Part shown: positions 10,152-27,860 of the stretch, piece after piece
How positions within the stretch are numbered: the first letter of the stretch is position 1
Layout of the letters: each line of letters starts with the position of its first letter
Virus record (IMG/VR): IMGVR_UViG_3300034375_003113
Coordinates: 62,001 to 126,000 of that record
Reading direction: 5' to 3' (one strand)
DNA from: a virus
Length of the DNA stretch: 64,000 nt
The notes under the pieces: model-generated
The model's database searches: none
Told to the model about the DNA's origin: nothing
Seen by the model: the letters and a program-made list of their open reading frames with translations, nothing else
Made by a program: the position numbers and the translations under genes

Positions 10152-12539
10152 TTAGTAAGTTCCGCCGTCTAGGTCGCCGTACGCAATATTACTACCGTCT
10201 GATTGTAAAATTTTACCACTTGCACCAAGTGTTAATTTAGCAAGTGTGTTTGATCCACTTGCATATAAAATATCACCAGTAGTGTAAGAAGATTGTCCTG
10301 TACCACCATATACTTCGTCAATAACTGTACCATTCCAAGTACCTTGATTGATAGTTCCTAATGTTGTGATTGATGTTTGACCAGTATAAGTTGATTTAAT
10401 TTGTAATGCGTCAGATGATATTTCAATTGTAGTGTCGTCAACAGCAACATCTAATTGATTACCAGTTTTTGTTAAAGCATCACCAGCACTTATTTGACCA
10501 GCACCAGAGAATTGAGCAAATGTAATACTTGTAGAACCAAATGTTGGTGTACCGTTATGTGTAGCAACATAACCATTATCAGCATTTGTAGAACCTTGTT
10601 CAACAAAGAAAAAAGTACCACCAGTTAATTCTGAAGCTGTGTCAGCATCAGGAGCTCTTGATAATACATATGCAGTTGAACCATCTCCAACAGTTGTTAC
10701 AGTATAGATACCGTTTTGAGTATCTGTTGATTGATCTTTAACTAATAATCTGTCACCTTGACTTAAAGTAACACCGTCAATTGATATTGCACCATTTGAA
10801 CCAGCTGTTAATGTTCCTGCACCATTATCATATGTAGCAGATAAATTTGCTGTTGTAGCAACTTTAACACTTTCTTTTACATCTAATCCGTTTGCAACAC
10901 TATCAACATATGCTTTTGTAGCAGCGTCTTGGTCACTTGAAGGATCAGTAACGTTTGTAATTCTACTTGAATTAACATCAACAGTACCAGAACCTTTTGG
11001 ATTTAATACTAAATCAATATTAGTATCACCACCAGTTGTAGCAATCTCTACACCATCACCAGTAGCAGCGTTAGTAACTTGTAATTCATTAACAGCACTT
11101 GCAGTTGTTCTTAATAGAATTAACTCATTACCATTTGCGTCAGCAAGATAACCAGCGTCAGCAAATTTAGGTGCTGTAAGTGTTTTATTTGATAGTGTTT
11201 CTGTTCCTGCTAATGTAGCAAAAGAACCATCACTTAACGCACTATTAAATTCAGCAATTGTACCAGTTAAAGTACCTTCAGATAAATCTAATGTTAAAGT
11301 GTTGTTTGCACTATCAATTATTTTGTTTTGTAAAGTTTGATTTCCTGTTAATGTAGCAACAGTACTGTCTATAGCTACTGTAATTGCATTACCTGTAGCA
11401 GACGTATCAATACCAGTACCACCAGAAACAGATAATGTTTCACTATCTAAATCAATAGCAATTGTTCCTGAATCTGTTGTTACATCTAAATCTTGTGCTG
11501 TAACTTGTGAGTCAACATAAGCTTTAATTGCTTTAGCAGAAGCAAGTGTATTATCACTTGCAGAAACAGAACTTAAATCTGTATCAACAACACCTGAAGC
11601 AAAATCAGCAACTTCTATATTAGATATAGAGTTACCAGTTCCATTTGCGTCAAATGTTTTATTTGTTAAAGTATGTGTTGATGAAGCTGTTAGTACGTCA
11701 GCGTGTGTACTAATTGTAATTGTATCACCTGAAACTGAAGTATCAATGTTTGTACCACCAGTAAATGTTAATGTGTCTGAACCTAACGCAACACCATCGT
11801 CTGTACCACTATCAGCAGCAATATCTAAAGTTGTTGATATTGTAGCCGTACCAGCCGCTGTTAAACGACCTTGTTGATCAACAGTAAATGTTGGAATTGC
11901 AGTTGAAGAACCATAACTACCTGGAGTTACAGCAGTGTCATCTAAATCTATTGTTATTTCATTATCTGTAATAGATGTAGTAATTCCTGTGTCACCAGTA
12001 AACGTTAAAGTTTGACCAGTAGTAAATGTGTCAGTACCACTATCACCAGCAAGTGTAAATGAACCTGATGGAATAGCAGCAAAACTTAAATTACCAGAAC
12101 CATCAACTGTTAAAAATTGACCGTTTGAGTAAGTACCTGGAAGAGTATAAGTAACGTCTGCAGCTAATGAGTTGGGAGATTTAAGAGCTACAAAGTTTGC
12201 ACCGTTATTAGTACCTTCGTTTAATTTTATTGTACCACCTGTAGTAGCATTATTACCAATAAACAATTCATCAATTGCTTTATTAGAATCTACTATTAAA
12301 CCAGAAGACGCAGTTAGCGTTCCTGGTGTGTGGTCTAAAAGTTGTGTGTAATATCTTCCACCAATTTCAATTGCTGAATTAGATGAAGATGTTGGATCAC
12401 CAATGAATAACCTATAACCGTTACCACCAGCACCACTATCGGTTGCTGAAGTATCATAGACATAAGCTAGTTCCCCTTGGTTAAGGCCGCTGGGTGCATT
12501 AGCACCAGTGGTTCGTTTAATTTTGATTATTGTTGCCAT
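10152..12539 (-). CDS. 795-aa tail fibre protein
   Basis: Residues 1-60 (MATIIKIKRTTGANAPSGLNQGELAYVYDT) form an Mtd_N-type head. A repeat region follows with [38 protein letters not shown] and [18 protein letters not shown] modules shared with the other fibres. From about residue 490 the sequence changes to a non-repetitive domain (ELQVTNAATGDGVEIATTGG; VDVNSSRITNVTDPSSDQDAATKAYVD), ending in a distal domain with YTGQTSITTLGTINQGTWNGTVI. The DAATKAYVD motif is a familiar phage fibre element. A GGGAGAG ribosome site precedes the ATG. It is likely a second receptor-binding or whisker-type fibre. Confidence 0.85.
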   Translation of the reverse strand: MATIIKIKRTTGANAPSGLNQGELAYVYDTSATDSGAGGNGYRLFIGDPTSSSNSAIEIGGRYYTQLLDHTPGTLTASSGLIVDSNKAIDELFIGNNATTGGTIKLNEGTNNGANFVALKSPNSLAADVTYTLPGTYSNGQFLTVDGSGNLSFAAIPSGSFTLAGDSGTDTFTTGQTLTFTGDTGITTSITDNEITIDLDDTAVTPGSYGSSTAIPTFTVDQQGRLTAAGTATISTTLDIAADSGTDDGVALGSDTLTFTGGTNIDTSVSGDTITISTHADVLTASSTHTLTNKTFDANGTGNSISNIEVADFASGVVDTDLSSVSASDNTLASAKAIKAYVDSQVTAQDLDVTTDSGTIAIDLDSETLSVSGGTGIDTSATGNAITVAIDSTVATLTGNQTLQNKIIDSANNTLTLDLSEGTLTGTIAEFNSALSDGSFATLAGTETLSNKTLTAPKFADAGYLADANGNELILLRTTASAVNELQVTNAATGDGVEIATTGGDTNIDLVLNPKGSGTVDVNSSRITNVTDPSSDQDAATKAYVDSVANGLDVKESVKVATTANLSATYDNGAGTLTAGSNGAISIDGVTLSQGDRLLVKDQSTDTQNGIYTVTTVGDGSTAYVLSRAPDADTASELTGGTFFFVEQGSTNADNGYVATHNGTPTFGSTSITFAQFSGAGQISAGDALTKTGNQLDVAVDDTTIEISSDALQIKSTYTGQTSITTLGTINQGTWNGTVIDEVYGGTGQSSYTTGDILYASGSNTLAKLTLGASGKILQSDGSNIAYGDLDGGTY

Positions 12540-13505: not shown

Positions 13506-13871
13506 ATGGCAATAGATATACAATTTTTATATAAAAATTTAGTAGATCCAAACAAAACTTATGAGTCAGTTGATGAATTTTTTGACTCAGCATATACTGG
13601 AACTACAGATGAAGAAGATTTAAAGGCACACGAAGAAGTAAATAAAACTTATATATATGAAAAAATGGGTGTCTTAACAAATGACAACAAAGCAGTTATA
13701 ATTGTTAGAAGATTTGAAAACATTACAATGTATAACGAATGGAAAAAGAAAAGAAGCTTATTGCCCAATATAGATTTTAATTTATCGGAACAAGAAGGAT
13801 TGTTTGCAGAAATAACACCTTGGGGTACAAACGATAACGGAAAAACTGAAACAATAGAGGAGTTTAACTAA
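13506..13871 (+). CDS. Small hypothetical protein, paralogue A
   Basis: 121 aa. It shares a layout with the next gene: a VDEFF motif (residues 22-26), an acidic EEDLKAHEEVN helix, a 'Y-EKMGVLTNDNKAVIIVRRFE' strand segment, then YNEWKKKRSLLP. This looks like a small alpha/beta domain duplicated in tandem. No known family was recognised. GGGGTTAA upstream may act as a ribosome site, and the plus-strand late box lies just before it, so it is likely expressed late. Confidence 0.65.
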   Translation: MAIDIQFLYKNLVDPNKTYESVDEFFDSAYTGTTDEEDLKAHEEVNKTYIYEKMGVLTNDNKAVIIVRRFENITMYNEWKKKRSLLPNIDFNLSEQEGLFAEITPWGTNDNGKTETIEEFN

Positions 13872-14221
13872 TGGAAACACATATTCAACAATGGAAATTA
13901 ACTAATAAAAATGAGTCGTTAACGTTTGGATCAGTAGAGGAATTTTTTAATAAAAGTTCATCAACAGAAATAAGCGAAGATGACATAAACCAACACATTA
14001 ACAACGAAGCACTATATGTAATAGATAAGTATGCTACTTTAAATGATGATAAGAAATCAGTTTTAATTGTAAAAGAATTTGAAACTGAAGCTTTATACAA
14101 AGAGTGGAAAGAAAAAGCAGCTGCTTTACCAGTTGTTGATGATCTTATAAATTCTGAAGAATTAGGAGCGGTTGTTACGGATGAAAGAGTTTTGAATCAT
14201 TTTGATACATCAGCTGAATAG
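13871..14221 (+). CDS. Small hypothetical protein, paralogue B
   Basis: 116 aa, a clear paralogue of the preceding protein: VEEFF at residues 22-26, SEDDINQHINN, KYATLNDDKKSVLIVKEFE, and YKEWKEKAAALP. Stop and start overlap in TAATG, so translation is coupled and the two products are probably made in equal amounts, perhaps as a heterodimer. Function unknown. Confidence 0.65.
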   Translation: METHIQQWKLTNKNESLTFGSVEEFFNKSSSTEISEDDINQHINNEALYVIDKYATLNDDKKSVLIVKEFETEALYKEWKEKAAALPVVDDLINSEELGAVVTDERVLNHFDTSAE

Positions 14222-14252: not shown

Positions 14253-15581
14253 ATGAATGTAGTTATATTATCACATAAGCGTAGTCTTAACAAGACCGAA
14301 GGTCTTATCACAGCGAATTTAAATAACCACATCACATTGGTTTGTGATGTGGTGCCAAACAAGTCAGGCGATCGCTACAAACCTTTCATAAAACACATAG
14401 ACGATTTAGTTGTATCAAAGAAGTTTGATATAATAGAAATCACAAAACAAATTATATCTTGTGATAAAGTGTTTTGTGTATCAGAAAATTTATTTCCTAT
14501 TCAAGCACAATTAGAAAGTTATTACGGTATAAACAATATGTCTGCCTTTGCAGCTGAAGTGTTTAGTAATAAACAGAAACTTGATGATTTTTGTAGAGTA
14601 ATAGGACTACAACATAACGTACCTAAAAGTATTACACCTACCTTTCATAGTCAACTAGATGTATTTGATGGCAATGAGTTTTTTACAAAACCTGACATCG
14701 GTACTGGTAGTAATTCTTTCTATCCTAAATCAGATCAGAATACACCTATAATAGAGTATAGAAGATGGAATAACAAACATCATTTTTTAGATCATTTAAG
14801 TAAACTAAATTATCATAATGATTTTTTTGAAATCAATAAAACAGGTATTCAAAATGAAAACTTTAATAATGTACCTTGTAAAATTATGGCACAAGAATAC
14901 TATTGGTCTGAAGAGCCATCTATATCACCTTATGGTTATGTTAAAGATGGTAAAGTAGATTGTTTATTCTATGTAAGAAATGCTAAAGTAAAGTATGGCG
15001 ACATATTAGACTTTCATAAAAATCCTATAGATCAACATTCAATCAGTAAGAAAAGTGATATCGCAAAAGATATGGCAGTATGGTCTATACCTGTGAGTGA
15101 AGTAGATGAAGAGCAACATAGAATAATGTATGGTTTCGTACAGACTATAGTTGATAAACTAAAAGTAAAAGATATGTACTTTGCAGGTCCTGACTTTCAC
15201 ATATCAGGTAAAAAATTAATTGCAATAGACTTTAATACACGTATAGGTCAGTTTATTAATATATTAGATAAGTTACCTGGCAATAATATATTTAACAATA
15301 TAGGTAACAACAAAGAACCAGAAATTACAAATCATCTACTATGGGGTTGTACTCAATTAAAACCTGGTGTAATTAAAGAAATAAAGAATATAGAAATCGT
15401 TGAACAATATCTAAATTATCTGAATAAGAAGTTAGAAGTCGGTATGAATATACCTGAATTTCAAAATCTACAAAACAAAAAGTTTAATGTAAATCTTAAC
15501 ATAACTGGTAGAGATCAGCAAGAGCTGTTTGACAACTATAAGGATGCCAACCAGCTCTTACATAATTGTATTACTTACTAA
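14253..15581 (+). CDS. ATP-grasp-type ligase
   Basis: 442 aa. A lysine-containing ATP-binding segment (FFTKPDIGTGSNS, residues 143-154) and a later metal-binding stretch (AIDFNTRIGQ, residues 324-333, with D326, N328, R330) match the ATP-grasp fold. Family members join a carboxylate to an amine or thiol through an acyl-phosphate. Three overlapping ATGs occur at 14249, 14253 and 14257; only 14253 is in frame. No ribosome site is evident. The 3' end overlaps the convergent tctC gene by 11 nt. Substrate unknown; a peptide- or amino-acid-ligating role would suit the adjacent modification island, but this is inference. Confidence 0.6.
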   Translation: MNVVILSHKRSLNKTEGLITANLNNHITLVCDVVPNKSGDRYKPFIKHIDDLVVSKKFDIIEITKQIISCDKVFCVSENLFPIQAQLESYYGINNMSAFAAEVFSNKQKLDDFCRVIGLQHNVPKSITPTFHSQLDVFDGNEFFTKPDIGTGSNSFYPKSDQNTPIIEYRRWNNKHHFLDHLSKLNYHNDFFEINKTGIQNENFNNVPCKIMAQEYYWSEEPSISPYGYVKDGKVDCLFYVRNAKVKYGDILDFHKNPIDQHSISKKSDIAKDMAVWSIPVSEVDEEQHRIMYGFVQTIVDKLKVKDMYFAGPDFHISGKKLIAIDFNTRIGQFINILDKLPGNNIFNNIGNNKEPEITNHLLWGCTQLKPGVIKEIKNIEIVEQYLNYLNKKLEVGMNIPEFQNLQNKKFNVNLNITGRDQQELFDNYKDANQLLHNCITY

Positions 15582-16347
15582 AGTTAGCAACAGCCTCTTC
15601 AAACATTTCTATAGTTTGATTAGAACCATTTCCAACATAAGTTACAGAGCCTTTGAATTTACTATTCCACTCGGTAGTTGTAGAGAGGTTTGTTACAGCA
15701 GAACGTAATTCATTTGTTAAGGCGTAGTTAGCATTAATGGTGATGATTGCGTCAACAAATCTAAAACCTAATTCACCTTTTTCTGAAAAGGCAATACATT
15801 TAGAACCATCTTCCTCTAATGCGGCTTGACGTGAAGTAATTGTAAAGACAGTATCGGCGTCTTTGCCAACATAACCTTTAGTAGTACTTCCGCTGCCAGA
15901 ATAAGGTACAACTACAAAATTTACATCATATTTTGCACCTAAATTTTTTAAGAATTTTGCAACTGGTTCTGATCCCCATGTCGCAATCTTAACAGTTTGT
16001 CCACCCATATCTTCAAGTGAATTGTATGCTCTACTACACATAAGAGTTTCATATGTCATTAAAGCTACAATGTTATCTTTAGATACTTTCGGACTTTTCA
16101 AACTATCGTCACCTGGCCATTCACTAGACCATATCGTTAAGATAGGTTTATTAGATTCACCTTCAATATAAGTGTATGCAGTAACTGGATTATCTGCCTG
16201 AACAAAGTTATGGTCAGTTGTATCACCTATTGTAGAAAGAATTTGTCTGAAGACACCTTCTTGTGAACCAGGATTGATTATTTGTACTTGAGCATATGCC
16301 ATTGTACTGAACAACATACTCATTATTATTAACATTATTTTTTTCAT
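15571..16347 (-). CDS. tctC: TctC-like periplasmic substrate-binding protein
   Basis: 258 aa with a clear Sec signal peptide (residues 1-19, cleavage after MAYA). The mature part has the pattern of the tripartite tricarboxylate transporter receptor (Bug/TctC) family, notably VKIATWGSEPVAKFLKNL and VVVPYSGSGSTTKGYVGKDADTVF. It is shorter than usual (about 300-330 aa), and the N-terminal PF-A-GG loop is not obvious. In this family the protein captures small carboxylates and delivers them to TctA. It follows tctA after 11 nt with an AGGAG ribosome site. No TctB partner is present. Phage origin is shown by the flanking genes. Confidence 0.7.
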   Translation of the reverse strand: MKKIMLIIMSMLFSTMAYAQVQIINPGSQEGVFRQILSTIGDTTDHNFVQADNPVTAYTYIEGESNKPILTIWSSEWPGDDSLKSPKVSKDNIVALMTYETLMCSRAYNSLEDMGGQTVKIATWGSEPVAKFLKNLGAKYDVNFVVVPYSGSGSTTKGYVGKDADTVFTITSRQAALEEDGSKCIAFSEKGELGFRFVDAIITINANYALTNELRSAVTNLSTTTEWNSKFKGSVTYVGNGSNQTIEMFEEAVANFSK

Positions 16348-16358
16348 TTTTTTATCTC

Positions 16359-17645
16359 CTATAAGATTATTAATGTTCTAATTAAATTTTCGTAAAATAG
16401 ATCGCTTAGAAAGTATCCGTAAATAATAGGACTAGTATCCCAGCGTCTAATTAAGAACCCGATTATAGACAAAACAAATATACAGATAATCATCCATTCA
16501 CGTATGGCGAATATTGATATACTTGCAATGCTAATTATTGAGAGAAGTAAGATGTTTGCAATTGTTCTATATTGTTTATAGAGATATGCAATCTTACCTA
16601 ACAGATTGAAACCGTACCAGCTTAACCCCAAACAAAAGGCAGTAACAAAGGGTATAATATAAATTATACTTTCTAAATGTTTGACTGTATTTTGAGCGTT
16701 GAAAACGAAACCATCTTCTAACATAATATAATAAATCAAAACTTCACTTCCCGTAATGGGTATCGCTAGTATAAGCAAAGGCAATAGTGATGATAAGGCG
16801 CCACTATTATTTGCTGCCTCTGCGGCTGCTATGCTTTTAAGTACAGGTTTTTTGAAAAACCTTTTAACAATATTTGCACTTGCATAACTGCCAAGAATAT
16901 TTGTTACACCTGGTATAAGACCACACCAAAATCCTACAAAACTTCCTATGAGTGTAGGCGTAGTTGTATCTTTACCAACTGTAAAAGTATTTATACGTTT
17001 AGGTACTTCTACTTTAAAACTATTTAACTTTGTTAGTTCTGGCACTATGTATAATCCTATCATCACACTTGCAAAAGGTATTCCGATTGCGAGGTATGAG
17101 TTATTGAAAGTCAAAAAACTATCAAATGTAATAGGGTCTATACCTACTTTTGCAATCATGCCTCCGAATAAAAACAGTATTATTGTAAACAATTTATTTT
17201 GTTTTGTCAATAGTGTAATCATTATAATTGCAGCTGCAACAATAACTGTCTGTAGTACACTATTATAAAATCTAAAAACTTCTATGATCCAAGGCAATAC
17301 AAAAATAAAAACAGTAAAAGCAAATATAACTCCTACTGTACTACTTACAGCGTTAGAAGCAACTGCTAGATTACCAAAACCTTTTAAGAATAATTTGTGA
17401 CCATATCTTGCAGTACTCATTGCTGTGGCGTCACCAGGTATACCATACAGAATAGCAGTTACACTATTTGTATAATTAGTTGCAATCAAAACTGTTACGT
17501 AATACATCATAACATTGACAGGCTCTATATGTGTTAGAAAAGGATATAGAGTTGCCGTTGCAACAAAAGGTCCTGCACCTGGTATTACACCAAAGATGAC
17601 ACCACTTAAAGTTCCTATTATAGCCCAAAATATTGTATCGTACAT
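16359..17645 (-). CDS. tctA: TctA-family inner-membrane permease
   Basis: 428 aa, strongly hydrophobic, with the inverted-repeat design of TctA. Repeat 1 has GVIFGVIPGAGPF (residues 15-27) and SVTAILYGIPGDATAMSTARYGHKLFLKG. Repeat 2 has SFVGFWCGLIPGVTNILGSYA, KSIAAAEAANNSGALSSLLPLLILAIPITGS. These glycine/proline motifs and EAANN are signatures of the family (PF01970). Canonical members are about 500 aa, so this one is trimmed at the C-terminus. It should import small organic acids using the ion gradient together with TctC, but the small TctB subunit is missing. Its start overlaps the TonB-receptor stop as TAATG, so translation is coupled. Confidence 0.85.
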   Translation of the reverse strand: MYDTIFWAIIGTLSGVIFGVIPGAGPFVATATLYPFLTHIEPVNVMMYYVTVLIATNYTNSVTAILYGIPGDATAMSTARYGHKLFLKGFGNLAVASNAVSSTVGVIFAFTVFIFVLPWIIEVFRFYNSVLQTVIVAAAIIMITLLTKQNKLFTIILFLFGGMIAKVGIDPITFDSFLTFNNSYLAIGIPFASVMIGLYIVPELTKLNSFKVEVPKRINTFTVGKDTTTPTLIGSFVGFWCGLIPGVTNILGSYASANIVKRFFKKPVLKSIAAAEAANNSGALSSLLPLLILAIPITGSEVLIYYIMLEDGFVFNAQNTVKHLESIIYIIPFVTAFCLGLSWYGFNLLGKIAYLYKQYRTIANILLLSIISIASISIFAIREWMIICIFVLSIIGFLIRRWDTSPIIYGYFLSDLFYENLIRTLIIL

Positions 17646-19285
17646 TAAAATGATTTGTTAAAACCTAAAGTAAACTTTCTACCTTCTTGTGAGAAACCAT
17701 GAGGTGATTCATACTTCTCATTCAATAGATTGTTTAGACTTACACCAAAATTAAATCCATGATAGTTATAACCTAGATTTAAATCAACTAAATGTGTTTC
17801 TGGCATTGATATTGTAGACCAGTTTGAGTTATGTATATCTAAATGTTTACCTTTGTATTTGTAGTTAGTAGTTAAAGTAAAGTTATTTTCAAACTTCTTA
17901 TTGTGAATAAAACCAAGTGACCATTCTGGTCTTCTTAATGATAATACATCTTTTGTTTTACTTGTTAAATTACTTGCAAAAAGTTTCCAATCACCTGTAT
18001 TATATGACATCTCTACACCATTTGTATTCAGATCACCTATATCATTTTGAAAGATAGTAGTAGCAAAGTTATTTTTAGTTAACGTTACCTCTTGTGAGTC
18101 ACCATATACTACATCGCTGTATAATGTTTTATCTTTATATGACGTTGAGTGACTACCACTTATACTTAAACCATCGTCTAATTCTTGTAAGAATCCTATT
18201 TTATAAGTTTCATGGTCTTCATCAAATCTATGATGATATGATAATATGTTGTATGAAAAATTAAAGAAGTATCCCATGCCATGATTTCTACCTGTGTTTT
18301 CTGACCATGCAGATTTACCATAATTTTCATCATGTTTATAATCAAAACCTATTCCCCAATTTTGTCTTTGATGAACACCTCTTAACGACCAATTTTGACT
18401 ATCATAATTAGCGTCATCATAAATTCTTTCATATTCGTGTGTATGAAAAGTTAAACTATTATTAAAGTAATCTATACCTGTTTGAAAAGCATAAAAACTA
18501 TTATCAGACCATTTGTCATCTTGTACAGCAAGACTATGACCATCAATATCTGTAAACGTATTTCTTGTAAACCAAGATGCTCGCCAATGTATCATATCAT
18601 ACCATTTACTTACATTGACACCTATAGTCTGATTTTTTGTACCGTCTTTTTCATCAGCACCTGATAAAGCAGAAACATTTTTAGACTCATGTTCACCTGC
18701 TGAAACAGATATATCAAAGTCATTTAATCTAGTATAATAATTACCACTTATAGTTTTATCATTACCATTACCTGATACATTATATCTTTTATCGTAATCT
18801 ACAGTTGTTATAAAATTAATTGCACCACCTACAGCGTCTGCACCCCAATGAGCACCTGCACCACCTTTATATACATTTATTTGTACAACGTTAAACATAA
18901 AGTCTTGCCCAACGTCAAATGCACCTGTAGGTGTTGATGTATCATTGATAGGTATACCATTCAATAAAACTAAAGTGTGATTAGAGTTTGTACCTCTTAA
19001 AAATACAGAACCAGTTTGTCCTTTTGGTCCTGATTGTGTAACGTCTAGTGTTGATACGTAATTTAAAACACTTGGTAAATCAATTAGATTGTGTTCTCTT
19101 ATTTCTGTTTTTGTAATTGTTGTTGTAGGTGTTATTCTATCACCTAATGCGTTTGAATTATTTAAGCTACCTACAGGAATCACTATACAAGGTGGGTCAT
19201 CATCCCAACTACAATCAAAACGATTGTCTTCAGCGAAAGTTTTTGTAGATACAAATAAAAATAATAATATAATCAATAATCTCAT
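17645..19285 (-). CDS. BtuB-like TonB-dependent outer-membrane receptor
   Basis: 546 aa with a signal peptide (1-18, TKTFA). The plug domain has LPSVLNYVSTLDVTQSGPKGQTG, SVFLRGTNSNHTLVLLNGIPIND, VVQINVYKGGAGAHWGADAVGGAINFIT; these closely follow the corresponding BtuB segments. A barrel of aromatic-rich strands follows, ending in NLLNEKYESPHGFSQEGRKFTLGFNKSF, with the C-terminal Phe of outer-membrane barrels. A possible TonB box is IVIPVGSL near residue 34. Length is close to BtuB (about 600 aa), so it looks intact. An AGGAT ribosome site precedes the ATG. BtuB imports cobalamin; here substrate is inferred only. A phage gene for an intact receptor is rare. Confidence 0.85.
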   Translation of the reverse strand: MRLLIILLFLFVSTKTFAEDNRFDCSWDDDPPCIVIPVGSLNNSNALGDRITPTTTITKTEIREHNLIDLPSVLNYVSTLDVTQSGPKGQTGSVFLRGTNSNHTLVLLNGIPINDTSTPTGAFDVGQDFMFNVVQINVYKGGAGAHWGADAVGGAINFITTVDYDKRYNVSGNGNDKTISGNYYTRLNDFDISVSAGEHESKNVSALSGADEKDGTKNQTIGVNVSKWYDMIHWRASWFTRNTFTDIDGHSLAVQDDKWSDNSFYAFQTGIDYFNNSLTFHTHEYERIYDDANYDSQNWSLRGVHQRQNWGIGFDYKHDENYGKSAWSENTGRNHGMGYFFNFSYNILSYHHRFDEDHETYKIGFLQELDDGLSISGSHSTSYKDKTLYSDVVYGDSQEVTLTKNNFATTIFQNDIGDLNTNGVEMSYNTGDWKLFASNLTSKTKDVLSLRRPEWSLGFIHNKKFENNFTLTTNYKYKGKHLDIHNSNWSTISMPETHLVDLNLGYNYHGFNFGVSLNNLLNEKYESPHGFSQEGRKFTLGFNKSF

Positions 19286-21114: not shown

Positions 21115-22012
21115 GTGTCATCTCCGTAAATATTCTGTACATAGGTGGTCTGTATAAATTACAATGGTCGTAATCAACTTTGTTTATTTTTAAACCTACA
21201 TGACCTGCAAGTGTATTTACAGCATGTTCAGTCCAGTTAAAGTACCATGTGTACTTCCAGTTTCTATCATAAAAATAAAACGCACTATTTTTTTGTGCAT
21301 GTTCTAAATCGCCATGTATCCAAGTATGACCATGTGGGTGATCTGGTTGAAATACTTTATAGTAATTATGAACATGTGACCATAATAATAGACCACTAGG
21401 TGCTAAACAATTCTTTAACGTCATAAAGTTTCTATATTGTTCATCATACGTATACCAGTTTTGAGGACCAAAACATATAATTACATCCCATTTTATATCA
21501 TCAGCAGGTTTAAAATCTGCTTGACTACAGATTATGTCTGCTTCTTTTCTATATGGATCAACGCCTGTAACATTATTTAAATGTTTCTTATATTCATTTA
21601 CACCACAACCCATATCTAATATTGTTAAATTAGGTCTTTCTTTTTGCATTGCTTGTAATCTTTTAACAAGAGCTTCACCTCTTATATTCCATTTGTTTGT
21701 AATAGGTTTATCGTTTACATCTTTTATTTCACCTACGACACCTGTTGTACTTGTGCCATTTTCTGCTACAAAGTAATTACTTTGATATTGTTTATCTATT
21801 TCTTTTACGAAATCGCCCATTGTTTTATCGTGCCAATCCATTATACCACCTAGATGTATAGGGTATTCTTTATCTCTTACTGTCATAGAAAATTCTTTTT
21901 GACAAGCAAGAATAAAATCCATTGTAAAAGGTAATTGATTGATAGGGCTATCTACTGATATGTTCCAGTAAAATAATTCTTCTACTTTATTCCATATTAA
22001 TTTGTTTATCAT
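21107..22012 (-). CDS. SAM-dependent methyltransferase
   Basis: 301 aa from ATG 22012 (ATGA overlap with the upstream stop; an in-frame TTG lies at 22024). The SAM-binding motif is LTILDMGCGVNEYKKHL (residues 129-145), followed by VTGVDPY, the acidic loop residue D152, and KWDVIICFGPQNWYTYDEQYRNFM as motif III region. The 130-residue N-terminal extension before the Rossmann domain and an aromatic/His-rich C-terminal half (HVHNYYKVFQPDHPHGHTW) are unusual and may form the substrate pocket. Histidines could bind metal. Substrate unknown. It sits between an oxygenase and a cobalamin radical SAM enzyme. Confidence 0.75.
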   Translation of the reverse strand: MINKLIWNKVEELFYWNISVDSPINQLPFTMDFILACQKEFSMTVRDKEYPIHLGGIMDWHDKTMGDFVKEIDKQYQSNYFVAENGTSTTGVVGEIKDVNDKPITNKWNIRGEALVKRLQAMQKERPNLTILDMGCGVNEYKKHLNNVTGVDPYRKEADIICSQADFKPADDIKWDVIICFGPQNWYTYDEQYRNFMTLKNCLAPSGLLLWSHVHNYYKVFQPDHPHGHTWIHGDLEHAQKNSAFYFYDRNWKYTWYFNWTEHAVNTLAGHVGLKINKVDYDHCNLYRPPMYRIFTEMTHG

Positions 22013-23673
22013 TTTATTCTCCAAGACTCACTAAATCTACCTCTAACGTGTATATCTCTGAGCCATTCCATCTTATCGTCAATAGGTCTGAAATCTTTTT
22101 TGTTGCGATCAATAATCTCATCATATTCTGGATACATTTCTTTGAACACATCAAATATATTATTCTCGGTATAGAACAAGTGAGAATAAGCTGTATCTGT
22201 ATAATAATTTATATCTTTATTAAGTATCTTATATCCAATGTCTTTGTACTCATTAAGTGCTTTAAAATAATGTTCTCTAACATCTAGTTTGTGTTTCATA
22301 AATGTTTTGTTTTTAAATAGTTTTGAATATATGTCTTTAAATAATTCACTTCTATTACCATTAATTTCATAATAACAATCAGCATGATACTTTGCTAGAC
22401 CATACCAGTACATTGGTATTAAGAAACTTCTACTATAAAAGAAACCTTCAAAGACTTGATCTCTTGTCATCTTATCTGTTGCAACAGCAATCTCATCTAT
22501 TACATCATTGTTATATGGCTTTGCAGTACCTTTAATATTTTGCCATATCATTTCAGGAAAACCTGTGTTAAATTCTGTATTACTTAATCTACTTAAAGTA
22601 TTAATCTGTATCATATCAAATGGTGCAGGCATGTCAACTATTTCGTGTAGACCATACTTAAATGTTTCTAAACTATCACCAGGCAAAGGAAAGATTAATT
22701 CTGTATATGATGAAACACCTTTGTCTTTTAAATTCTTTATGATAGGTTTGAAACTCTTAATATCAAACGCATTTCTTCTATTGACATTATCTAAAGTTTC
22801 AGGATTTGTAGATTGTAAACTAAAACCAAAAGTGTCATCTACATTTGCGTCTTGCAATTTCTTTGCTAACTTCATTATCTTTTCACCATGTGTCTTAGCC
22901 CACGTAGGCATAAATCTACCATTGAATTTACCTGCCTTCTTTTGTTCTACTACAAAATCTACAAGTTTTTCATCTCTAGGAAATATACCAAAGTTACTAT
23001 CTGCTACATCTATAGCAGTTACATTTCTATCACACATCCATTTTAGTTCTTTTAAACATTTTTCTGTTTCAAACATTTGTATCTTTGTATATTTCTTATG
23101 GCCTATGTCACAGAAAGAACAAGTATAAGGACAACCTCTATTGCCTTCAAAGATTGCTCTGACTTTTTGTGTGTTGCCTTCTAGTAAACTATCAAAGAAA
23201 CCATTAAGATAAGGACTAGGTATCATTTTAGGGTCGGCATATTCTGCCTCGGCTGCATTGTTAAAGTCTTTTGTAACAACACCTGGTATGTTAAGTTCAT
23301 CATCTACTAGTAATCTTCTCATTGTTTCTTCACCATAGTATGCTAACACAGCGTCTATTTCAGGATGTTTTTTACACCATTCTGATGTATATTGTGGTTC
23401 AGGTCCACCTACAACTATTCTACATTTAGGATACTTCTTTTTTATTTCTTTCAATGCGTCATATGTTATTTTCCAGTTCCACATATAACAACTTGCAGCT
23501 ATAAAATCAGGTTCAACTATATCAATCTCTTTGTTCCACCATACACCTGCAAGTTTATATTTCTTTCGTACTTCTTCAAACTGATTACAATAAGACCAGA
23601 TCGTACCTACTGCTTGTGGCAGATAGGCTGCGTCTGTACCTAAAGGTATCTGTAGAAAATAGAAGTTACGCAT
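22009..23673 (-). CDS. Cobalamin-binding radical SAM enzyme A
   Basis: 554 aa from ATG 23673, 8-nt overlap (ATGCGTAA) with the upstream oxygenase; an in-frame start at 23745 would overlap far more and is rejected. Residues 1-130 form a B12-binding-type Rossmann domain (PDFIAASCYMWNWKITYDAL; CRIVVGGPEPQYTSEW; VLAYYGEETMRRLL). The radical SAM cluster motif is GNRGCPYTCSFC with C181, C185 and C188. A long C-terminal region (about 200 aa) follows the barrel. Class B members methylate unactivated carbons or rearrange rings. Its paralogue is at 26010-27860, which shares the IPSPYL-G linker. It needs SAM, an electron donor and probably cobalamin. Confidence 0.85.
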   Translation of the reverse strand: MRNFYFLQIPLGTDAAYLPQAVGTIWSYCNQFEEVRKKYKLAGVWWNKEIDIVEPDFIAASCYMWNWKITYDALKEIKKKYPKCRIVVGGPEPQYTSEWCKKHPEIDAVLAYYGEETMRRLLVDDELNIPGVVTKDFNNAAEAEYADPKMIPSPYLNGFFDSLLEGNTQKVRAIFEGNRGCPYTCSFCDIGHKKYTKIQMFETEKCLKELKWMCDRNVTAIDVADSNFGIFPRDEKLVDFVVEQKKAGKFNGRFMPTWAKTHGEKIMKLAKKLQDANVDDTFGFSLQSTNPETLDNVNRRNAFDIKSFKPIIKNLKDKGVSSYTELIFPLPGDSLETFKYGLHEIVDMPAPFDMIQINTLSRLSNTEFNTGFPEMIWQNIKGTAKPYNNDVIDEIAVATDKMTRDQVFEGFFYSRSFLIPMYWYGLAKYHADCYYEINGNRSELFKDIYSKLFKNKTFMKHKLDVREHYFKALNEYKDIGYKILNKDINYYTDTAYSHLFYTENNIFDVFKEMYPEYDEIIDRNKKDFRPIDDKMEWLRDIHVRGRFSESWRIK

Positions 23674-24199
23674 TTTTGAAATTCTTTGTGTCTGTCCATA
23701 TAGTTTTGTTGTCAATCTTTGCAAACAATTTATCAACCCACTCAAATAAATCCATCATCAATACCCATCTAGGTCCTGTATCAGTTAACTGTCTAGGTAC
23801 AGCGTGTAACATACGTGTATTGAATATAACAGGACTATCAACTACGAATGACTCTACTGGATGATTGAATTGATCGTAAAAGTATTGAGGTGTATTTTCA
23901 AAATCACCTTTCAAAGGTATACCTAGATTGCCCCATTTGTTGTGGTCAATATGGTTTACTAACCCACCAGGTTTCACATTACTAATAAAAAATGATGGTC
24001 TTTTAAATTCTGTATTTAGACCTTCATACAATTCATTTAGTATAGGAAACTGTTTAGGGTTTAAAGGTAGTTCTTCAACATTCCAAAGTAAACCATTTTG
24101 ATCGTACCCTTGTCTCCATGTTGCTCTTTCAGCATATTCAATTATCTCATTGAAAACGTTTTTATCGTATTGTAATTTAAATTTTTTATGATACCACAT
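23666..24199 (-). CDS. Fe(II)/2-oxoglutarate oxygenase-like protein 4
   Basis: 177 aa, the shortest copy. VKPGGLVNHIDHNKWGNLGIPL carries H83 and D85, FNTRMLHAVPRQ carries H132, and R144 lies in GPRWVLMMDL. The GDFENTPQYFYDQF block aligns with copies 3 and 6. Start overlaps the upstream stop as TAATG. The triad and anchor Arg are intact. Confidence 0.7.
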   Translation of the reverse strand: MWYHKKFKLQYDKNVFNEIIEYAERATWRQGYDQNGLLWNVEELPLNPKQFPILNELYEGLNTEFKRPSFFISNVKPGGLVNHIDHNKWGNLGIPLKGDFENTPQYFYDQFNHPVESFVVDSPVIFNTRMLHAVPRQLTDTGPRWVLMMDLFEWVDKLFAKIDNKTIWTDTKNFKNA

Positions 24200-24852
24200 T
24201 ACGCATACCTATATTGTTCTATTAATCTTTCAAATAAATGTTCATCAAACTTCATACAAAATACTAACATAATAATATCGTCCGATGTACTAAAAACTGA
24301 ATGTCTTTTGTTTGCGTTAAAGAAAAACATCTGGCCATCTTTAACATCTCTAACTGTATCCTCGTATATAAACTTTAAATCTTTTTTATCACACCTGTTA
24401 ATGAAAGCAATAAATCTTATTTCATCATAACCATATTCTAATTTGTTTACATCATAGTGTTCAGGAAAATAACCACCTGTGTTTAGTTTTAGAAAGTGAC
24501 ATCTCCCTAACCAAGGTTTCCATGGTTCAATGAGTTTCTGTAATTCTTTTGAGTTATCATATACTTCGGTGTATTCTTTTATGTGATGATTTGTAATACT
24601 AGTACCATGTATCTTATTGTATTGTAGTAAACTATCTAAATCAGGTATACCACTTAACTTGCCATCTAAACTTGTTACACTTAATCCCCACCTGTTATTT
24701 GGGTTTCTTAAATTGTAAGGTTTCCATGAGTCTTTGTATGGCTCAAGGTCTTTCATTATCTGTCTAGTATTAATGTGTTGTTTCATTTGCAACCAATCAC
24801 CCATAGTAGAAAGTCTTTGAAGCGCTTTGTTTGTTCTATCTACACTGCTCAT
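24199..24852 (-). CDS. Fe(II)/2-oxoglutarate oxygenase-like protein 5
   Basis: 217 aa. LNTGGYFPEHYDVNKLEYGYDEIRFIAF carries H132 and D134, and FFFNANKRHSVFSTSDDIIMLVF carries H184. The arginine normally found about 10-12 residues after the second histidine is absent (SDDIIML instead). Either another residue such as R146 anchors the co-substrate or the protein has a different role. It is the most divergent in the N-terminal half. Overlaps upstream stop as ATGA. Confidence 0.6.
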   Translation of the reverse strand: MSSVDRTNKALQRLSTMGDWLQMKQHINTRQIMKDLEPYKDSWKPYNLRNPNNRWGLSVTSLDGKLSGIPDLDSLLQYNKIHGTSITNHHIKEYTEVYDNSKELQKLIEPWKPWLGRCHFLKLNTGGYFPEHYDVNKLEYGYDEIRFIAFINRCDKKDLKFIYEDTVRDVKDGQMFFFNANKRHSVFSTSDDIIMLVFCMKFDEHLFERLIEQYRYA

Positions 24853-25505
24853 ATAAATTTTATCCTTTTGTTTTTTTCATTCTGTTCCCAGTTTACTAAC
24901 GTACCATCTAGTAATCTTTTTTCTATATCTTCATAACTATTATGTCGCCAAGCACAAGTTATAATAATTCTATTTTTTTCTGTCTTGTTTTCTACACCAT
25001 GTATTTCAGGACCTTTAAATATCCAAGGTGCAAATTCATTTGTAATATCATTTTTCTCATATGTCATTCTATACTTTTCTGTACTTCTATCAAAACTATC
25101 ATAGAAAACTTGTGGACTTGTATCACTAAACTCACCTCGTATTGCAAAGTTTAAAGCAGTAGGTCTGTTTCTATCTTGGTGTGGTGGTGCACCACCTATT
25201 GCTGTTTGTGTGTACAATACAGTATCAAAAGATATTGCAGGTGTAAAAAGATTTATCAACTCATAATGAAACTCACTAAAAGGATAGTTTTTACATTCTC
25301 GTCTAGCATTAAATGCCTCTTGTACAGTCCATCTTATATGACCACAATCAAACAGATACCAATTGTTTTCGTCTATATTCTCTAAATGATTTAATAGATA
25401 TTCTCTATCGTACCAAAGAGTTTTTAGCTCACGACAATACGGTGCTGATCTTGTTTCTTCCAAGGACGTCAACCTTATCTCTGGCGTCATCATTAAACCT
25501 TTCAT
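24849..25505 (-). CDS. Fe(II)/2-oxoglutarate oxygenase-like protein 6
   Basis: 218 aa from ATG 25505 (other in-frame ATGs at 25493 and 25490). IGGAPPHQDRNRPTALNFAIRG carries H109 and D111, KGPEIHGVENKT carries H169, and R179 lies in KNRIIITCAW. The GEFSDTSPQVFYDSFDRSTEKY block aligns with copies 3 and 4. Its first 64-77 nt lie inside the 3' end of the peroxiredoxin-like gene in another frame. That is long for this operon, where overlaps are mostly 1-8 nt, so either start or upstream stop has shifted. Confidence 0.65.
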   Translation of the reverse strand: MKGLMMTPEIRLTSLEETRSAPYCRELKTLWYDREYLLNHLENIDENNWYLFDCGHIRWTVQEAFNARRECKNYPFSEFHYELINLFTPAISFDTVLYTQTAIGGAPPHQDRNRPTALNFAIRGEFSDTSPQVFYDSFDRSTEKYRMTYEKNDITNEFAPWIFKGPEIHGVENKTEKNRIIITCAWRHNSYEDIEKRLLDGTLVNWEQNEKNKRIKFI

Positions 25506-26013
25506 AATTTGTTTGTATAATTTCTAAATACTTAATCATTGTATCAGCGTCTGATACTTGAAAACACGTCATAGGGTTGTGTGTAAAGTCTTCATACTTA
25601 CAATGTTTCATAATTAGATTGTCTATAATCATAGCGTATCTATGACTACAATTTCCTAATCCTTCTTTACTCATACTCTCTAACATACCTATAGATGTGG
25701 CCCAATCACCATTAGGGTCAGGTAAGTTTTTTAGGTACGATAAATTTTCTGATTTGTGATATGCGTTTTGTACGTAACAATTATCAACACTTGTAAAATA
25801 TACTTCATCAATACCTAGTTCTCTTATCTTGCTGTAATAGAAGTCGTATGCTTTTAAATGTGTGGCTGCATACTCAACAAGAAATACGCCAGGCAATCCT
25901 ATTAGTAATATCTTTTTATCTTTAAATAATTCGTGTGTAGAATACCAGTTTGTGGCTGCACTATCTTTGTGCATAGTTTTTATATCTGGTATTATATCGC
26001 CAACTCTTATCAT
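25429..26013 (-). CDS. Peroxiredoxin-like protein lacking the peroxidatic cysteine
   Basis: 194 aa from ATG 26013 (ATGA overlap); an upstream start at 26064 would overlap much more. It follows the Prx5/AhpE-type fold: VGDIIPDIKTM, THELFKDKKILLIGLPGVF, HLKAYDFYYSKIRELGIDEVYFTSVDNCYVQNAY, and GLGNCSHRYAMIIDN. In active members the helix after PGVF reads T-P-T-C; here it reads L-V-E-Y, so Tyr48 stands where the catalytic cysteine belongs. Peroxidase activity by the usual route is therefore unlikely. It may have become a binding or scaffold subunit, or act through C78 or a later cysteine. It lies between a radical SAM enzyme and an oxygenase. Confidence 0.7.
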   Translation of the reverse strand: MIRVGDIIPDIKTMHKDSAATNWYSTHELFKDKKILLIGLPGVFLVEYAATHLKAYDFYYSKIRELGIDEVYFTSVDNCYVQNAYHKSENLSYLKNLPDPNGDWATSIGMLESMSKEGLGNCSHRYAMIIDNLIMKHCKYEDFTHNPMTCFQVSDADTMIKYLEIIQTNYERFNDDARDKVDVLGRNKISTVLS

Positions 26014-27860
26014 AACATAATCTCCTTTGATTTCAAAAAACATCTCTTGGCTTTTCTTCCCCACCAGAATAAATGCTTTGAGTGGTCTACTATATCTTTA
26101 TATTTATAAACGGCTACAGATACGATATTATTAACAGCGACTAATGGTTTGTTATCGTAGAACCAACTATACCAATTCTTATCAAATTGTTTTTCTGTAT
26201 CATCTCTTTCGTATGTGTCAATAATGTGCTTGTTAAACTGGCACGCTTCTGATACATCTACATTATATTCTTTCTTACATATGTCTATAACTTCTTTATG
26301 TACCTTGTCTATGTTTTTATATAAGAAAGAAGCTGTTGCACCATTATCTTGTATATGAAAATCATCGCCACCTTCAATAGTTCTACCCCATGTCTTATCT
26401 TCAAATAAACTTTGTTTCAAACTGTTTGTGTGATTTTTATATTCTTCATTTAGTATGCCATTACCATTTCTACTATACTCAAATAGTTTTTTATAAAAAT
26501 CTATAAATGGTACATTGTGTTCTCGGTTAAGATATGTGGCTGCAACTTGACTAACACCATGATAGTGATGAGGTATCACAAGACCTTTAGCGAAAAAATA
26601 CATGTCTATATAATCTTGTTTACTAAAACTTTTACTTTCATATGCAACATAATCAATCTCACCATTACTATCTTTAGGATAAGTATTACCACCTGCAGGT
26701 GCAGCTGTCTTTGTATATTTGTATCCGTATTTGTTTTTATATTCAGGATCAGAAAAAGGAGTATTAGGTACAATACTCAAAGGGTGTACTGTTAACGCAT
26801 GGTCACTTCCTAATTCTAGTATCTTACCTATACCTTCAATCCATGTGTCTAATGTTTCTTCAGGTAAACCTACAATTAGTTCACAATAATTATCAACACC
26901 TGCTTTATTATAGTCGCCAACAATTTGTTCTAATTTTTCATTTGCAAGATTAATTCTTTTGATTGCTTTTAATGTTTTAGGATTCATACTTTGTAAAGCA
27001 ATAGTAACACCACGTCTTATCTTTGCTTCTTTATTAAGTATTTCACCCAACTCAACAATACGTTTTGGTTGTTGTTTTGCTGTACTATAATCTATCTGTC
27101 TAGGATAACCAGTTTCATTTCTACGTTTAGCGATGTGTCTTATAAAGTCAACATCTCTATTGAACATACCTACATTACTATCACCAAAGTATAAGAAGTC
27201 AATTTTATTTTTTACAATCCAATCTATCTCACCTATTACTCTATCATAATCAAACATGGCAATCTTATTGTAATATAAATCTTGTTGATCGCAGAAAGAA
27301 CAACTATATGGACAACCTCTATTAGTTTCTATGATAGCACTATATTGTTTACCAGGTTGCATAAGACTATCCATCAACCCACTTAAATAAGGACTTGGTA
27401 TGTCGTTTAATTCTTTATCTGGTTTAGGTGGCGTATAAGAGTCTTTTGTCATTACGCCTGGGTACGTATAGTTACCTTTTAGTATTTCAGCAAATGCTCT
27501 TTCACCTGCATATGTAACTATAATATCGCATAGGTCAGTATTGTCTTCTAACCAACTTTGTTTGAATGGCACTTGTGGTCCACCCATTACTATTTTGCAA
27601 TTAGGATATTTCTTTTTGACTGCTCTTGCTAACTGACAAGTTATGTCCCAGTTCCACACGTATGTTGATAATGCTAAGATGTCAGGATTGTCAATCTTTT
27701 TTAGATAGTCCTCTACGGACTCTCTTTCAAAGAAGATGTCTCCTAATTCCCAATCTGTTACCTGTGTCTTACAATATTCCCATATGTAAGCAACACTTAA
27801 CGGTAAAAAGATAGCGTCAGCAATTAGATTGTTTATTTGAGTAAAATATACCTTTTTCAA
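26010..27860 (-). CDS. Cobalamin-binding radical SAM enzyme B
   Basis: 616 aa. The start is a TTG at 27860; no in-frame ATG exists nearby, and the first residues (MKKVYFTQINNL) align with enzyme A, supporting this start. The B12-type Rossmann domain spans about residues 1-130 (PDILALSTYVWNWDITCQLA; CKIVMGGPQVPFKQSW; IIVTYAGERAFAEIL). The cluster motif is TNRGCPYSCSFC with C183, C187 and C190. The barrel has VDNYCELIVGLPEETLDTW. First gene of the 13-gene minus operon. The weak TTG codon at the head could limit its synthesis. A late-box-like tatttata lies inside its 3' part at 26101. Confidence 0.85.
   Translation of the reverse strand: MKKVYFTQINNLIADAIFLPLSVAYIWEYCKTQVTDWELGDIFFERESVEDYLKKIDNPDILALSTYVWNWDITCQLARAVKKKYPNCKIVMGGPQVPFKQSWLEDNTDLCDIIVTYAGERAFAEILKGNYTYPGVMTKDSYTPPKPDKELNDIPSPYLSGLMDSLMQPGKQYSAIIETNRGCPYSCSFCDQQDLYYNKIAMFDYDRVIGEIDWIVKNKIDFLYFGDSNVGMFNRDVDFIRHIAKRRNETGYPRQIDYSTAKQQPKRIVELGEILNKEAKIRRGVTIALQSMNPKTLKAIKRINLANEKLEQIVGDYNKAGVDNYCELIVGLPEETLDTWIEGIGKILELGSDHALTVHPLSIVPNTPFSDPEYKNKYGYKYTKTAAPAGGNTYPKDSNGEIDYVAYESKSFSKQDYIDMYFFAKGLVIPHHYHGVSQVAATYLNREHNVPFIDFYKKLFEYSRNGNGILNEEYKNHTNSLKQSLFEDKTWGRTIEGGDDFHIQDNGATASFLYKNIDKVHKEVIDICKKEYNVDVSEACQFNKHIIDTYERDDTEKQFDKNWYSWFYDNKPLVAVNNIVSVAVYKYKDIVDHSKHLFWWGRKAKRCFLKSKEIML

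Follow-up and report, generated by a model that had tools for sequence, protein, structure and literature searches.

Phage TctA/TctC-type transport genes keep company with an ATP-grasp ligase-like gene and adjoin an optional BtuB-like receptor gene in marine T4-like phages

Phage auxiliary genes are mostly single host-like genes, and pstS is a known example of a transport gene among them. For marine viruses, a SusC-like TonB receptor is on record in phage Mar_Mega_1 (PMC9723777). A tctA gene was mentioned for viral contigs of SUP05 (PMC4164917), and a myovirus scaffold with norB/nirK also has tricarboxylate transport genes (PMC8115048). Phage tctA is thus already known in passing, while for the module of TctA, TctC, ATP-grasp and oxygenase-like genes described here no report was found in the literature searched.

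The window, i.e. the whole stretch of 64,000 nucleotides that was analysed, is part of a 128,678-base IMG/VR virus record. This record also encodes a T4-like gp23, with identities of 80% to the gp23 of Pelagibacter phage Mosig EXVC030M, 71% to that of Melnitz (Methylophilales host) and 69% to that of HTVC008M, which places the phage among the T4-like marine myophages related to Mosig and HTVC008M, with the SAR11-infecting Mosig as the nearest. In Mosig, the strip adjoining the fibre genes holds other modification genes, two Asp_Arg_Hydrox proteins among them. The window encodes:

10152..12539, minus strand: fibre-like protein, from neighbourhood comparison; it flanks the module, next to which other phages also have relatives of it
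14253..15581, plus strand: ATP-grasp carboxylate-amine ligase-like protein, 442 aa, from AF2 fold and motif
15571..16347, minus strand: TctC/Bug-type periplasmic substrate-binding protein, 258 aa, with signal peptide, from fold
16359..17645, minus strand: TctA permease, short viral form, 428 aa (PF01970, 1.1e-57)
17645..19285, minus strand: TonB-dependent receptor with BtuB-like plug, 546 aa (Plug PF07715, 4.6e-17); optional member
22009..23745, minus strand: B12-binding radical SAM protein (PF04055, 1.9e-14; PF02310, 3.3e-11)
24199..24852, minus strand: Asp/Arg-hydroxylase-like (dioxygenase-like) protein, 217 aa, with an HxD...H motif; fourth member of the module
26010..27860, minus strand: second B12-binding radical SAM protein (PF04055, 2.1e-11; PF02310, 7.7e-11)

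The receptor, TctA and TctC-like open reading frames are intact, as the first-pass annotation had stated. Its other observations also hold, namely the TAATG coupling, in which the receptor stop codon and the TctA start codon have one base in common, the 11-nt gap between TctA and TctC, and, from the neighbourhood annotation, the fibre and baseplate genes further out. No chimeric join was found. The same region with both flanks is present at 100% on contigs from at least four other metagenomes, for example on a 165.7-kb contig, and at 80-98% identity on further IMG/VR contigs; as the identical arrangement occurs in several independent metagenome assemblies, a chimera or assembly artefact was ruled out. 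A misassembly that brought in the trio from host DNA has next to no probability: no point in its support was found, the junctions are repeated in many independent assemblies with contigs of up to 170 kb, and the gp23 gene lies on the same record. Omega from codon comparisons is 0.08-0.24 across TctA, TctC, the ligase and the two receptor alleles, all of which are under purifying selection. Between the fibre genes and the ligase gene, two small tandem proteins (window 13506-14221, plus strand) are among the fastest-changing of the locus, with 36-73% identity between otherwise close phages.

TctA matches PF01970 over profile positions 1-418 of 423 with 196 bits (Pfam cut-off 28.9), which assigns it to this family. 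Against a viral profile, the viral copies reach 668-815 bits and the best bacterial TctA from 299 genomes reaches 139 bits; judged by sequence, bacterial TctA is only distantly related to viral TctA. TctB (PF07331) had no match in the 128.7-kb record and nine relatives (10 phage records). The shortened TctA without TctB that had been noticed at first pass is hence confirmed, but it is not a defect of this copy, as the protein measures 419-441 aa across the whole viral clade.

For the TctC-like protein, searches in Pfam, PHROG, NCBIfam and the PDB sequences gave no match, and a profile-profile comparison with bacterial TctC gave a probability of 2%. The best PDB match of its AF2 model (pLDDT 84.7) is Bug27 (2qpq, E 4.9e-10, TM 0.67), and TctC (4x9t), TphC and MatC are matched as well. 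Because the sequence methods all failed, the proposed homology to TctC is one by predicted fold only. Bug-type proteins of uncultured phages are also present in BFVD.

The ligase gene is convergent with tctC and overlaps it by 11 nt. Its AF2 model (pLDDT 87.5) best matches a GAR synthetase-like protein (4dim) and L-amino acid ligases (3vot, 4wd3; E about 2e-16) in the PDB, with PurK also among the structure matches, and the ATP-grasp motif KPxxGSG...IDxNxR is kept in 44 of 44 ligases. The modelled fold and the Mg/ATP motif are both those of ATP-grasp enzymes, and ligase activity is predicted. The oxygenase-like protein gave weak PF05118 and cupin matches, with a family score below the cut-off. 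It shares 35% identity with a protein of phage Mosig that is annotated as Asp_Arg_Hydrox, and the HxD...H motif is found in all 39 oxygenase-like proteins (39/39). The modification-gene strip of the window contains several oxygenase-like genes; a Redoxin-domain protein (PF08534, 1.4e-11; window 25429-26064, minus strand) is encoded in the same strip.

An alignment search with TctC hit 86 places in viral contigs, from which at least 80 loci were taken, with TctC-like copies 42-100% identical; 58 remained after dropping identical TctC proteins. The ATP-grasp gene is present in 56 and TctA in 47 of these, and the missing cases stop at or near a contig edge, so that TctA, TctC and ATP-grasp occur together wherever the contig reaches far enough to show it. 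All three are full length in 44 distinct viral loci, 38 of which also have the oxygenase-like gene. Three gene orders were seen: TctC><ligase-TctA-oxygenase (25 loci), oxygenase...TctA-TctC><ligase (11 loci, the window type) and TctA-TctC-oxygenase><ligase (2 loci). Many neighbours within the module overlap by 1-20 nt, including start and stop codons. From locus to locus, the four proteins show correlated pairwise identities (Spearman 0.84-0.89), as expected of joint inheritance, although phage relatedness alone would give the same. Among the larger records, 18 of 19 have the oxygenase-like gene, the exception being a 177-kb record with the triad only; TctA was found in 14 of 14 records tested. 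Matches to TctA and to the TonB-dependent receptor among phage records were partial and of low identity, and came from records that look bacterial or carry no annotation; they were set aside. The obligate partner of TctA/TctC is therefore the ATP-grasp gene, joined in nearly all cases by the dioxygenase-like gene, and we regard the link of TctA/TctC with the ligase as highly probable. The proposal that the transport genes are phage-borne and conserved in other phages is borne out by dozens of viral contigs, while the unit was wrongly drawn at first, with both of these partners left outside.

Profile searches in bacteria, covering 289 genomes from one class for TctC and 299 from the phylum for the ligase, recovered the two only in one and the same phage-contaminated bin, these genomes being samples of the bacteria and not all of them. 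The copy in this bin, 'Rhodobacteraceae Water_Bin34', was rejected as a host gene because a gp32-like gene was recognised by eye on one of the contigs and gp23 has nine matches in the bin; the public bin (contigs L061 and L062) is contaminated by T4-like phages, and gene calls from it are therefore unreliable. Phage contig L062 also encodes a heme oxygenase (L062:4425-4967, minus strand; PF01126, 3.8e-17), together with a membrane protein (L062:6222-7187, minus strand) that had no Pfam match and looks by eye like a phosphate permease. The module is kept through rearrangement in dozens of contigs of marine phages, and the searched bacterial genomes did not yield it; it therefore has the look of a metabolism that belongs to the viruses themselves.

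TctA/TctC could also be a plain nutrient or 2-oxoglutarate/citrate importer that serves host metabolism or the phage's oxygenase-like enzymes, with the ligase separate and merely linked. The best bacterial TctA matches that were checked lie mostly in classical tctCBA operons adjoining two-component regulator genes, which would suit such an importer, as would the number of oxygenase-like genes in the strip. The linkage to the ligase, however, outlasts rearrangement in every readable contig, and we consider a plain importer unlikely. An import of a carboxylate for the ligase and the oxygenase-like protein is the most likely role that we infer for TctA/TctC.

The receptor had been described as a complete BtuB-like protein with signal peptide, plug and C-terminal Phe, and Pfam and structure matches agree with this description. 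It has a signal peptide-like N-terminus and the C-terminal Phe, and BtuB structures are its best match, with the C-terminal barrel region aligned; it thus comprises both plug and beta-barrel. Against TIGR01779 the E-value is 4.8e-26 but the score of 91.5 bits is below the cut-off of 599.7, so that it does not rank as a BtuB equivalog. Its presence varies. In sister phages a 26%-identical receptor is substituted, with a DUF6580 gene before it, and TctA and TctC remain 94-98% identical. In a 170.8-kb phage there is no receptor, and its place is taken by a DUF6580 protein of 172 aa (9.2e-42). The great majority of TctA/TctC phages have no receptor, and other phage contigs have receptors of 56-77% identity without TctA/TctC in the stretch examined.

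These exchanges bear on the initial idea that receptor, TctC and TctA form one line from the outer to the inner membrane, importing a single nutrient, e.g. an iron-carboxylate complex. The three genes are tightly coupled, both in the window and with either receptor allele of the clade. Against this, the receptor is swapped or absent while TctA and TctC stay, it occurs without them, and its bacterial relative is under B12 control. A TTT permease is, moreover, not the known partner for cobalamin. A single line is hence improbable.

The bacterial relative (33% identity, 4.5e-39) was the only one above the threshold among 190 genomes of the class. Its locus has the order AdoCbl-II riboswitch (71.9 bits), receptor, DUF6580, and in a second bacterial genome DUF6580 is convergent with a receptor bearing a cobalamin riboswitch (L180:8503-11082 and L181:7866-10619 for the two genomes). 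Phage receptor and bacterial relative have an N-terminal CxW...PCxxI motif in common; no cobalamin riboswitch was found in the phages. Because the relative lies behind an AdoCbl riboswitch and before DUF6580, and DUF6580 occurs at the receptor's place in sister phages, we read the receptor as a likely B12 uptake protein, and cobalamin is probably its ligand class, being the best supported one. DUF6580, for which the literature searched gave no published function, is a candidate for a new B12 transport protein family.

In receptor-only phages, a B12-binding-like radical SAM gene lies beside or near the receptor, and B12-binding genes occur also in TctA phages without receptor. The association between receptor and B12-binding gene (7/15 versus 0/6 records, Fisher p 0.06) is not significant alone, and the phages are related. 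The most likely role of the receptor, for which we see about an even chance, is the uptake of B12 for the B12-binding radical SAM enzymes of the phage.

Instead of transporting, the receptor may block or mimic a phage receptor, as in superinfection exclusion or as a decoy. Such a role would explain the replacement of the allele, which is swapped between close relatives at a locus adjoining fibre genes, and the authors who described phage Skadi took its TonB receptor gene as a sign of adsorption (PMC10504331). The B12 riboswitch and DUF6580 neighbour of the bacterial relative and the B12-binding enzymes nearby do not fit this role, which appears rather unlikely. For B12 uptake, the host is the main difficulty: Pelagibacter is reported to be without TonB-dependent iron uptake (PMC3475125), hence the receptor may lack TonB in a SAR11 host. 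Either the phage infects some other bacterium, or the receptor may function in a different way. On some phage contigs, an alphaproteobacterial-type tmRNA lies near the TctC module (L062:5847-6179, minus strand; L120:6982-7316, plus strand; L132:6258-6652, plus strand); tmRNA in related phages was already mentioned (PMC9004378), and its type hints at an alphaproteobacterial host of these phages.

From the gene sets, their conservation, the folds, the purifying selection and the riboswitch context of the bacterial relatives, we infer substrates, transport direction, product and the links between units and enzymes as follows. Two functional units would share one hypervariable locus adjoining the tail-fibre genes: a carboxylate importer-ligase-oxygenase set and an optional B12 receptor, a reading that we favour tentatively and rate a little short of an even chance. 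In the conserved unit, periplasmic TctC would bind a small carboxylate-type solute, which the shortened TctA, without TctB, would move across the inner membrane; the ATP-grasp enzyme would use ATP to activate a carboxylate for coupling with an amine. Either the substrate or the product may be hydroxylated by the HxD...H oxygenase-like protein. The resulting compound probably serves, during infection, to modify a glycan, a virion component or a metabolite. In the optional unit, the BtuB-like receptor, in sister phages together with the small membrane protein DUF6580, would raise cobalamin uptake, and the additional cobalamin would load the B12-binding radical SAM enzymes. It is possible, if somewhat unlikely, that importer, ATP-grasp and oxygenase-like proteins make up a virus-specific biosynthetic unit without cellular counterpart, to which some lineages add B12 acquisition for radical SAM enzymes. 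In sea water, B12 ranks among the scarcest vitamins, and a phage-borne receptor would tie infection to it; the idea that phages import cofactors for their own enzymes becomes directly testable. Taken together, the locus suggests that this group of marine T4-like viruses comes equipped to supply unusual chemical reactions inside the cells that they infect.

The published phage transport genes named above resemble this locus in being uptake genes of marine phages, with tctA mentioned in passing; the accessible parts of these papers describe neither a TctA-TctC-ATP-grasp-oxygenase set nor an adjoining B12 receptor. By family as well as by structure, the plug matches BtuB best, and the bacterial relative under AdoCbl riboswitch control adds to the likeness; in contrast to BtuB, the phage receptor scores 91 bits where the equivalog cut-off is 600, no canonical TonB box was identified in it, and its CxW...PCxxI N-terminus is distinctive. 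BtuM, a relative of ECF S components, transports cobalamin as a single protein (PMC6072759). DUF6580 may be a comparable small membrane partner of a B12 receptor, although by analogy only, since it is a separate Pfam family. With the bacterial TTT system (TctCBA) the phage set shares TctA, recognised by Pfam, and an adjacent gene for a binding protein of predicted TctC/Bug fold. It differs in having a TctA of 419-441 aa instead of about 500 and a TctC of about 256 aa that is unrecognisable by sequence, and its partners are, in place of tctB, the genes for the ATP-grasp ligase and the oxygenase-like protein.
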